Source: an uncultured Pelagibacteraceae bacterium (lineage in GTDB: Bacteria > Pseudomonadota > Alphaproteobacteria > Pelagibacterales > Pelagibacteraceae). From it: a DNA stretch of 59,798 nt. Below the pieces are notes generated by a model. That model made no database searches and had not been told where the DNA came from. It was given only the letters and a program-made list of their open reading frames with translations. Below are positions 53,863 to 56,834 of the stretch, piece after piece (the first letter of the stretch is position 1; the number at the start of each line of letters is the position of its first letter). Position numbers and translations under genes: made by a program. The stretch spans positions 1 through 59,798 of the forward strand of contig CAJQRF010000017.1 in assembly GCA_905612235.1 (NCBI GenBank), given 5' to 3'.

Positions 53863-54456
53863 TTATTGTATAAGAAATATTCCTAGCTGTGAATAAATAT
53901 TTTTATATTTTATATTTTTATTTGTAATTTCAGAAATTTTTTCATTTGTTAAACACATAGACTTATCAATTTTTATATTTTGACGATTACAAAAGTCTAC
54001 AAAATCTTGAATTGTACACATATGTAAATTTGGAGTATTATACCATTCGTAAGGTATATTTTTAGTTATTGGCATAGTTCCTTTAAATAATAAATGAAGT
54101 CGTATTTTCCAATATCCAAAATTAGGAATAGAAACAATTGTTTGTTTTCCTATTCTTAGTAATTGATTTAAAACTTCCTCAGGATTAAGAAAAGCTTGAA
54201 GCGTTTGACTCAACACTACATAATCAAATGATTTCTTAGGAAATTGGATTAATTCTTTTTCGGCATCTCCTTCAATTACTGATAAACCTTTTGAAATACA
54301 TTTTTGCACAAGGTCTTTTTTTGGCTCTAATCCTCTGACATCATTTTTTTGATTTTTCTTAAGGTATTCCATAAGAGTGCCATCACCACAACCTACATCT
54401 AGTACTCTTTTATTATTTTCAATAATATTAGAAATGACTTTAAATTCCTTTTTCAT
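53863..54456 (-). CDS. metW: Methionine biosynthesis protein MetW
   Basis: MetW is a class I SAM-methyltransferase-fold protein that pairs with MetX in proteobacteria and is thought to support homoserine acylation; its exact action is unsettled. The 197-residue protein has VLDVGCGDGTLMEYL (about 19-33), the FDYVVLSQTLQAF segment, VSIPNFGYWKIRLHLLFKGTMP and YEWYNTPNLHMCTIQDF, which are diagnostic for MetW. It overlaps metX by 17 bp and is therefore translationally coupled to it. Confidence 0.94.
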   Translation of the reverse strand: MKKEFKVISNIIENNKRVLDVGCGDGTLMEYLKKNQKNDVRGLEPKKDLVQKCISKGLSVIEGDAEKELIQFPKKSFDYVVLSQTLQAFLNPEEVLNQLLRIGKQTIVSIPNFGYWKIRLHLLFKGTMPITKNIPYEWYNTPNLHMCTIQDFVDFCNRQNIKIDKSMCLTNEKISEITNKNIKYKNIYSQLGIFLIQ

Positions 54457-55555
54457 TATTTACCTCGTCATAAGTTGATTTAATAAAATCACTTAAAGTT
54501 TTTAGAAACTTTGGCACATTTAATAAAAATGAGTCATGCCCTTTGTCAGAGTTTATTTCAACAAAACCTACATTTGCACCACAAGCATTCAAAGCTATTA
54601 CTATTTCTTTGTTTTCACTTGTGGGATAAAGCCAGTCAGATGAAAATGAAATTACACAAAACTTAGACTTAGTATTTTTAAAGGCTAAAGATAAGTTGCC
54701 ATTAAACTGTTTTTCTAAATCAAAATAGTCCATTGCTCTCGTGATATATAAGTAACTATTTGCATCAAATCTATCTACAAAATTTTCACCTTGGTAACGT
54801 AAGTAACTCTCTATTTGAAAATCTGCATCAAAACTAAATTTTAAACTTCCTTTATCCTGAAGTTTTCTTCCAAATTTTTCTTGTAGTCCTGCTTTAGACA
54901 GATAAGTAATATGAGCAGCCATTCTTGCTACGGCTAAACCTTTGTCAGGTGTTAAACTTTCATTTTTCCAATTTGGATCTGCCATGATTGCTTGCCTACC
55001 CAATTCATTCAAGGCAATATTTTGAGCTGAATGACTTGCACTACAAGCTATTGGTATTGCGGAATGAGCCATATTTGGAAATAAAGATACAAATTGTAAT
55101 ACCTGCATCCCACCCATTGATCCACCCACCACAGCTAATAATTTTTTAATACCTAAGTGATCTAATAAAAATTTTTGCGAACTAACAATATCTTTTATTG
55201 TTATTATAGGGAAAGTAGTACGAAATATTTTATCTGTTTCAGGATTAATTTCTTTTGGTCCAAAGCTGCCCATACAACCTCCCAAAACATTTGCACATAT
55301 TACAAAGTATTTGTTTGTATCAATCGCTTTTCCTGGACCAACAGCAAATGCCCACCAACCTTCTCTTTTAGTAATTGGATTTATATTTGTTACAAATTGA
55401 TCGCCTGTTAAAGCATGAAATACTAGGATCGCATTACTTTTTTTTTCATTTAAAGTTCCATAAGTTTCGTAAGCCAATGGAAAACCTTTAATTATTTTAC
55501 CACAATCAAGAGCTAGTGACTGGTTGATAATAAATTTTTTTATATCAGTATTCAT
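54440..55555 (-). CDS. metX: Homoserine O-acyltransferase MetX
   Basis: MetX acylates homoserine (acetyl or succinyl donor; not distinguishable here) for methionine synthesis. The alpha/beta-hydrolase has LAYETYGTLNE, HALTGDQF, the nucleophile Ser146 in VVGGSMGGMQ and the C-terminal NSDKGHDSFLL carrying the catalytic His. I use the ATG at 55555 (371 residues); the in-frame TTG at 55564 lies in the terminator T-run. No SD is present. A SAM-II riboswitch and terminator occupy the leader, so high SAM should switch it off. Confidence 0.95.
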   Translation of the reverse strand: MNTDIKKFIINQSLALDCGKIIKGFPLAYETYGTLNEKKSNAILVFHALTGDQFVTNINPITKREGWWAFAVGPGKAIDTNKYFVICANVLGGCMGSFGPKEINPETDKIFRTTFPIITIKDIVSSQKFLLDHLGIKKLLAVVGGSMGGMQVLQFVSLFPNMAHSAIPIACSASHSAQNIALNELGRQAIMADPNWKNESLTPDKGLAVARMAAHITYLSKAGLQEKFGRKLQDKGSLKFSFDADFQIESYLRYQGENFVDRFDANSYLYITRAMDYFDLEKQFNGNLSLAFKNTKSKFCVISFSSDWLYPTSENKEIVIALNACGANVGFVEINSDKGHDSFLLNVPKFLKTLSDFIKSTYDEVNNEKGI

Positions 55556-55562
55556 ATCTAAC

Positions 55563-55587
55563 AAAAAAAAACCCAGCTAAGCTGGGC
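55563..55587 (-). terminator. Intrinsic terminator in the metX leader
   Basis: On the minus strand CCCAGC-TTA-GCTGGG (55572-55586) is followed by nine T residues (55563-55571). It lies just after the SAM-II aptamer and seven bases before the metX ATG, the arrangement of a transcription-attenuation riboswitch. Confidence 0.85.
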
Positions 55588-55591
55588 AAAA

Positions 55592-55645
55592 ACCTTTTTT
55601 AGCTGTTTTTTTTTAAGCGCTCGCAATTAAGTTAAATCAGCGCTG
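55592..55645 (-). promoter_or_regulatory. SAM-II riboswitch (metA motif) controlling metX
   Basis: On the minus strand the leader contains the blocks GCGCTGATTTAAC, ATTGC, AGCGC and AGCTAAAAAAGG in the right order. These are the conserved parts of the SAM-II pseudoknot, including the P1 stem (CAGCGCT pairing with AGCGCT at 55614-55619). SAM-II elements precede metX or metA in alphaproteobacteria, and a marine metagenome metX copy was used for the crystal structure. A TTGACA/TACAAA promoter (55651-55679) would start the RNA at about 55644, right at the aptamer. Confidence 0.92.
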
Positions 55646-55650
55646 TTTTC

Positions 55651-55679
55651 TTTGTACTAAAAAGTAGATCTTTTGTCAA
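55651..55679 (-). promoter_or_regulatory. Predicted promoter of the metX transcript
   Basis: Reading on the minus strand, TTGACA (55674-55679) and TACAAA (55651-55656) are separated by 17 bp. The expected start is about 55644, which coincides with the first base of the SAM-II aptamer. Confidence 0.7.
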
Positions 55680-55715
55680 TTTTGCTTGTATTTATTTTGC
55701 CACAAAGCTTTGTAT

Positions 55716-55735
55716 ATAGTATTTACCAATACTAT
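55716..55735. repeat. Inverted repeat upstream of hisC
   Basis: ATAGTATT (55716-55723) and AATACTAT (55728-55735) are perfect arms around TACC, 19 bp before the hisC ATG in the metX/hisC divergent spacer. It may be an operator or a 5' hairpin. Confidence 0.45.
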
Positions 55736-55754
55736 TTATATATTAATAAAAACT

Positions 55755-56834
55755 ATGATTTTACCAAAACTAAAAAATATAACTGTGGAGAGATATGTTG
55801 AAGGTTTATCAAAATTTAAAAAAATTGAAAATCCAATAAAATTATCTGCTAATGAGTCTGCTTTAGGAGCAAGTCCAAAAGCTATAAATTCATTCGAGAA
55901 ACAAAAAGATAAAATTTTTAACTATCCAGAGTCTAATTCTAACTTATTAAGAGATTCAATATCTAAAAAATTTAATATAGATCCAGATAAAATTATTTGC
56001 GGCTCAGGATCAGACCAAATATTTGATTTTATTTGTAAAATATTTTTAGAAAGAGGTGATGAAGTGATTGTAACAGAGTTTGGATTTATTATGCATAGAA
56101 TTTATGCCTCTCTTCATGGAGCCAAGGTTTTATTAGCTAAGGAAAAAAATTTCAAAGCATCTGTTGATGAAATATTAAAAAACGTTACTGATAAAACAAA
56201 AATTGTATTTATAGCAAATCCGAATAATCCTACAGGCACTTACTTGTCAAAGGATGAAATGTTTAATCTAAGGAAAAAATTAAGAAGCAATATACTTTTA
56301 GTTGTTGATGATGCATATTTTGAATTTATAGATAAAGATGATTTCAGCTCTGGTTTAGATATTTTTAAAGATAAAGCAAATGTATTAATTACAAGAACAT
56401 TTTCTAAAATTTATGGACTTGCTGGTTTGAGACTAGGATGGGGATATTCATCTAAACAAATTATAGATGCAATGTATAAAATTAAACCTCCTTTCAATGT
56501 CAATAGAGCGGCTCTTGCTGCGGGCGCTGAAGCTATTAAAGATAATGAATGGACAAAAAGAGCAATTGACCATAATAAACTATGGTCTGAAAAAATATTT
56601 ACTATTTTAGAAGAAAATAAAATTGTATCAAATAAACCTACAGCAAATTTTTTTTTGATGAATTTTGATAAAACAAAAATTAATTCAGATGAAGTTTTTG
56701 AAAAATTAGCAAAAGAACGTTTAATTTTGAGAAAAATGGAACAATACAAAATACCTAACTCATTAAGATTAACTATTGGAACTGGAGAAGCGAATCAACA
56801 TTTTATAAAATCTATTCAAGAAATTTGTAAATAA
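55755..56834 (+). CDS. hisC: Histidinol-phosphate/aromatic aminotransferase
   Basis: This fold-I PLP aminotransferase acts on histidinol phosphate and, in this context, probably on aromatic keto acids or prephenate. Starting at the ATG at 55755 gives 359 residues; an in-frame ATG at 55686 adds residues with no family match. Motifs are LSANESALGASP (substrate arm), GSGSDQIFDF, ANPNNPTGT (about 155-163), DDAYFEF, and the PLP lysine in TRTFSKIYGLAGLRLGW (Lys218). Together with tyrC and opposite metX-metW it forms a known alphaproteobacterial arrangement, which suggests use in tyrosine and phenylalanine synthesis. Whether it is also the only HisC is not known. Confidence 0.88.
   Translation: MILPKLKNITVERYVEGLSKFKKIENPIKLSANESALGASPKAINSFEKQKDKIFNYPESNSNLLRDSISKKFNIDPDKIICGSGSDQIFDFICKIFLERGDEVIVTEFGFIMHRIYASLHGAKVLLAKEKNFKASVDEILKNVTDKTKIVFIANPNNPTGTYLSKDEMFNLRKKLRSNILLVVDDAYFEFIDKDDFSSGLDIFKDKANVLITRTFSKIYGLAGLRLGWGYSSKQIIDAMYKIKPPFNVNRAALAAGAEAIKDNEWTKRAIDHNKLWSEKIFTILEENKIVSNKPTANFFLMNFDKTKINSDEVFEKLAKERLILRKMEQYKIPNSLRLTIGTGEANQHFIKSIQEICK

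Follow-up and report, generated by a model that had tools for sequence, protein, structure and literature searches.

A SAM-II riboswitch before metX in SAR11 as a probable transcription attenuator, and the native setting of the crystallised metX SAM-II RNA

The metX leader on the minus strand of a 59,798-nucleotide stretch of Pelagibacteraceae DNA, here called the window, is best read as a SAM-II riboswitch that would act as an OFF switch of metX(W) by transcription attenuation, a reading to which we give a probability of roughly five in six. The leader contains a complete SAM pocket and a terminator, both are conserved and suitably positioned, and the complementarity between aptamer and terminator exceeds a stem-preserving null. 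Taken alone, the locus is an ordinary and probably functional SAM-II attenuator of an already known kind. It is of interest mainly because it leads to the genomic surroundings of the SAM-II RNA that has been studied most, the metX RNA of crystal structure 2QWY.

Promoter, aptamer and terminator are packed into positions 55563-55679 of the minus strand, and direct reading bears out both the coordinates and the anatomy proposed in an earlier, sequence-only reading of this DNA. The -35 element TTGACA (55674-55679), found in the same place in most relatives, is separated by a 17-nt spacer from the -10 element TACAAA (55651-55656), which matches the consensus at four of six positions and is conserved among relatives as TAGTA[CA]AA; a simple promoter scanner did not return it because the element ends in A. 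The RNA is expected to start at about 55645/55644, the first base of P1, as had been supposed. The SAM-II aptamer, with P1 AGCGC/GCGCU and the pseudoknot P2, occupies approximately 55591-55645 and was recognised by sub-threshold Rfam matches, a covariance model and alignment to the crystal RNA. Behind it stands an intrinsic terminator hairpin, GCCCAGC-UUA-GCUGGGU (55571-55587), in which a 7-bp stem of GCCCAGC (55587-55581) and GCUGGGU (55577-55571) encloses the loop UUA, and its tract of nine U residues (55563-55571) ends seven bases before the metX ATG (55555-55553). The CCCAGC/GCTGGG hairpin, the nine T and the seven-base distance are as first described. An intrinsic terminator thus separates the aptamer from the start codon, which is the arrangement of an attenuator. 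A terminator scan returned three candidates in 3.1 kb, this one included, against 0.9 +/- 0.9 in shuffles, and a chance origin of the hairpin is excluded because the order aptamer, terminator, ATG is conserved across relatives. The downstream gene (54440-55555, minus strand) had been named metX, and this is confirmed by NCBIfam PRK00175, homoserine O-acetyltransferase, which scores 496.8 bits (cut-off 331); its end is overlapped by metW (53863-54456, minus strand; TIGR02081, 240.2 bits). On the plus strand, a histidinol-phosphate aminotransferase-like gene (55686-56834) diverges from the metX promoter region.

Sequence comparison identifies the aptamer as SAM-II, and for the window copy we infer SAM binding. 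It is identical to the crystallised 52-nt SAM-II RNA at 39 of 52 bases, and at all 12 residues of the SAM pocket (G8, U11, U12, U20, U21, G22, C23, G42, C43, U44, A45 and A46), which upholds the class assigned from the sequence alone. We take this 52-nt RNA to be that of 2QWY, its residue numbers agreeing with those of the paper that describes the pocket. Its sequence was used for alignment as printed in PMC8494917, and the base triples of the pocket were taken from PMC3764141. Direct reading of the window gives P2 as AACUU/AGGUU and P1 as AGCGC/GCGCU, and the aptamer sits 5' of methionine genes, metX and then metW. No Rfam family reached its gathering threshold in the window. In a permissive search, the best matches were RF01726 (SAM-II long loops; 33.4 bits, cut-off 44) and RF00521 (metA/SAM_alpha; 21.9 bits, cut-off 36), such that the covariance search suggested earlier puts the SAM-II families first and yet leaves RF00521 below its cut-off. 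These scores are no argument against SAM-II, because the genomic copy identical to the crystal RNA, examined as a control, likewise falls short of the RF00521 cut-off of 36, at 34.1 bits, and the cut-off is therefore little informative for SAR11; a typical alphaproteobacterial member scores 87.7 bits. As an observation in its own right, the gathering cut-offs of RF00521 and RF01726 miss the SAR11 metX SAM-II RNAs tested, the native crystallised RNA included. The remaining sub-threshold matches, such as JA04 and the PyrG leader, appear to be chance matches to the terminator and U tract. A covariance model, R1, built from 23 SAR11 metX aptamers, scores the window at 74.7 bits (E 1.2e-15), which is not independent evidence because the window is one of these 23; of 397 genomes in the family, the model detects SAM-II in 374.

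The proposed mechanism rests on a single aptamer strand with two possible partners. RNA polymerase would begin the transcript on the aptamer. At low SAM, the 3' strand of the aptamer, CAGCUAA...GGU, would be free to pair with the emerging GCC...UUAGCUG, and this antiterminator would keep the terminator open, allowing metX to be transcribed. At high SAM, the same strand would be locked by SAM in the P2 pseudoknot, the terminator GCCCAGC-UUA-GCUGGG-U9 would form, and transcription would stop seven bases before the metX ATG. The model predicts that the window copy binds SAM, that its transcript is terminated, and which way the switch works.

The strand in question, CAGCUAA (55599-55605), is the SAM-binding strand of P2 and the proposed 5' strand of the antiterminator. 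Extended by one base, as CAGCUAA(A), it matches without exception the complement of (U)UUAGCUG, which comprises the loop and 3' arm of the terminator; within this, UUAGCUG (55574-55580) is the proposed 3' strand, supported by comparison with stem-preserving shuffles. Folding adds an inner helix between GG(G)U and the GCC side, which in the window joins GGU (55592-55594), the end of P2, to GCC (55587-55585). Together, CAGCUAA/UUAGCUG and GGU/GCC make 10 bp in the window and have counterparts across genera, and the putative antiterminator accordingly shares bases with both aptamer and terminator, with the modelled folds near balance in the window. That one aptamer strand serves both pseudoknot and antiterminator had been foreseen, and this part of the earlier proposal stands; the exact pairing put forward, AGCU with AGCU of the terminator 5' arm, does not, being 4 bp long and not conserved. 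Relatives vary there (AGCU, AGUU, GGCU), and the 10-bp pairing replaces it.

This complementarity was compared with a null in which the order of the terminator stem pairs and the loop letters were permuted while composition and pairing were kept. All 29 distinct metX leaders, drawn from five genera, beat these shuffles (p 0.001-0.05, median 0.003), leaders within a genus not being independent, and the suggestion of a terminator-based OFF switch gains support from them. Among other SAR11 SAM-II leaders, 5' of bhmT and other genes, 22 of 23 beat the same null (median p 0.004). The terminator of this second group, ACCACCG...GGUGGU, is unrelated in sequence, and its loop region CGCUUUAGC complements GCUAAAGCG. 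Here two pairs are changed on both sides from G-C to A-U (columns 9/34 and 11/32), the covarying cells stemming from three sequences only, and 94.7% of cells are paired in this register as against 22.6-49.8% in slid registers. The terminator helix of the second group has no pairs with changes on both sides. In the metX leaders, the antiterminator pairing hardly covaries, since the invariant SAM pocket forms its aptamer side. Covariation had also been named as a check on P1 and the terminator; P1 is invariant within SAR11 metX, and between the terminator arms covariation is weak, consisting of wobble-type changes only, all on the 5' arm.

Ensemble folding covered pseudoknot-free structures. With the outer helix enforced, the window antiterminator is computed at -10.0 kcal/mol versus -10.8 for the terminator; the g4 means are -12.6 and -10.5 kcal/mol, respectively. 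For apo RNA ending at the terminator GGG, the antiterminator is preferred in 57 of 59 metX leaders. The window's P(terminator) is 0.21 at this end point; lengthening the RNA by a single U raises it to 0.87, a value that 6% of shuffles equal or undercut. In these models, the two folds of the window are nearly balanced and the balance is clear-cut in relatives only, and kinetics would decide in the window. When the aptamer strand is kept in P2, P(terminator) becomes 1.0, by construction, since the antiterminator is forbidden in that 'SAM' ensemble. The near balance of the apo fold would also suit a terminator that is a constitutive attenuator or part of a small RNA and is not switched by SAM, for which the Sinorhizobium meliloti metA leader, with a terminator but no predictable antiterminator behind its SAM-II aptamer (PMC9373788), offers a parallel. 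We consider this very improbable, in that the complementarity of the SAM strand to the terminator occurs in two unrelated terminator designs, beats stem-preserving shuffles, and covaries in one of the two.

Comparison of the spacer across related SAR11 genomes, which the sequence-only reading had recommended, reveals a terminator conserved in five genera. In g1, the genus of the window, and in g6, g8, g2 and g4, all complete metX leaders read keep the order aptamer, terminator, ATG and carry [GA]CCC[AG]G[CU]..UAGCUGGG with a U tract before the ATG; one g1 match (L119), ending at a contig end, was left out of this reading. In most g4 leaders, the U tract lies 2-4 bases from the ATG. Genus g3 retains the metX aptamer, and the GC terminator is absent from all 77 of its leaders that were classified for the tree; the terminator is thus something that the lineage can do without. 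On sequence evidence, g3 has lost the metX GC terminator and uses a different downstream element. A CUC-N-CAAUUC-like sequence lies behind the aptamer in 106 of 107 g3 leaders (L012-L118) and complements GAAUUG-C-GAG of the aptamer loop and P1. A run of at least seven U directly follows P2 in 98 of the 107, and in most of the examples shown the minimum-energy fold is a long hairpin that dismantles the aptamer. As a tentative idea, and one that we would not bet on, the SAM-bound pseudoknot itself might end transcription in g3 together with the U run. A quick MetX tree, in which support values are quick ones only and one aberrant row (L121) has a very long branch, places a single change between the GC-terminator and g3 platforms, with support 74. 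Within one bacterial family, the expression platform thus changes while the aptamer stays nearly constant. A search for MetX in viral contigs gave no match. SAM-II 5' of metX (SAR11_0217) has been described in Candidatus Pelagibacter ubique (Meyer 2009, PMC2704228), which has the same aptamer class and gene as the window. In contrast to the window, g3 leaders, among them those of two records that bear the name Ca. P. ubique (L033 and L058), lack this GC terminator and have U7-9 with CUC-N-CAAUUC.

The sequence-only reading had treated a SAM-II riboswitch with a terminator as out of the ordinary, and this does not hold. A promoter-aptamer-terminator layout was described for many SAM-II RNAs together with the class itself (Corbino 2005, PMC1273637), and the S. 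meliloti metZ SAM-II is a class precedent for use of a terminator. RF00521 is present in 183 of 385 alphaproteobacterial genomes, and among 90 sampled non-SAR11 loci a terminator follows SAM-II in 82, as judged by our own search for hairpins over roughly 150 nt, some few of which are weak. The window shares with RF00521 members the P1 hairpin, the pseudoknot, the SAM pocket, the methionine gene, the promoter just 5' of P1 and the terminator before the ORF; it differs in its A/U-rich P2 and loops and in its score below the family cut-off. Complementarity between aptamer and terminator is weaker outside SAR11 (mean z -1.15, p under 0.05 in 19 of 82) and appears to involve the P2 strand GGUCGG and the terminator 5' arm, whereas the window would use its GCUAA strand and the terminator loop.

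The window leads from here to the crystal RNA. When 169 g4 genomes were searched with a query of 51 of the 52 bases, two (L320 and L327) contained it without mismatch, the 52nd base being identical as well, and 44 contained it with no more than three mismatches. In all 30 loci read (L298-L327), the crystal-type aptamer is followed directly by G(A)AUG-CCCAGUUUAGCUGGGC-U9-10 and then by the conserved metX start, with GACG in place of GAUG in L305. The terminator begins within 1-3 nt of the crystal-type RNA, and the metX start lies about 30 nt on. The 2QWY RNA, from the Sargasso Sea, thus shares with the window its gene, its pocket and, in two SAR11 genomes, its terminator; it differs in a P2 that ends in GGG and in an in-frame AUG that precedes the terminator. 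Because the same terminator and metX start stand behind its native copies, the 2QWY RNA in its SAR11 setting probably also controls transcription by attenuation, with the design seen in the window, and its presumed SD, AAGGG, would form the inner antiterminator strand. This RNA has repeatedly been presented as one that hides a Shine-Dalgarno sequence; the literature calls it translational (PMC6061858, PMC10907184, PMC12434664), and studies by crystallography, NMR, FRET and simulation have read the 52 nt as a translation switch. The textbook SAM-II example probably needs re-reading. That the native terminator can pair with the strand bound by SAM makes this a testable correction of the translation-switch view. 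The terminator behind the crystal RNA may have been noticed by others before.

Transferred to the window, the literature view would have SAM mask a ribosome-binding sequence, AAAAAAGG, where P2 ends, leaving the terminator secondary or constitutive, and it can draw on S. meliloti metA, where translation 74 nt further on, beyond a terminator, depends on the SD of the riboswitch (PMC9373788). The window offers no SD inside P2 at the usual distance from the start. Its AGG lies about 38 nt 5' of the ATG with the terminator in between, the closest GG 5' of the terminator being 55594-55593, and the 35 nt or so before the metX ATG contain no SD core, in line with the earlier statement that none lies between terminator and ATG. 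A 4-nt SD core precedes only eight of the 49 crudely called genes of the window. In the g4 loci, the AUG behind the 'SD' is spaced from AAGGGG by only about one base. In 28 of the 30 loci this AUG is in frame, but L305 has ACG in its place and in L308 the frame differs. Translational control in place of attenuation is accordingly improbable. Dual control, in which SAM would act by attenuation and also alter how well the read-through RNA is translated or how stable it is, overlaps with the attenuation reading and does not exclude it. This has its precedent in the S. meliloti SAM-II (PMC9373788), and we regard it as unlikely for the window, where no sequence feature of the locus demands it. For the 2QWY RNA, by analogy with S. 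meliloti metA, an added effect on translation may exist.

Other SAM-II loci of the family were observed alongside the metX leaders. The genome of the window contains, on another contig (C26:7525-7582, L002), a tandem SAM-II/SAM-V before bhmT with its own terminator, the loop of which complements GCUAAAGCG. Like the window it has SAM-II followed by a terminator; unlike the window it has a second, SAM-V aptamer and a different terminator sequence. In genus g5 (L163 and L167), the aptamer lies 5' of a MetW-like gene, and a weak A/U-rich or short hairpin with a U tract replaces the GC-rich terminator. At two further loci (L139 and L172), SAM-II followed by a terminator lies 5' of a peroxiredoxin-like gene, an unusual target.
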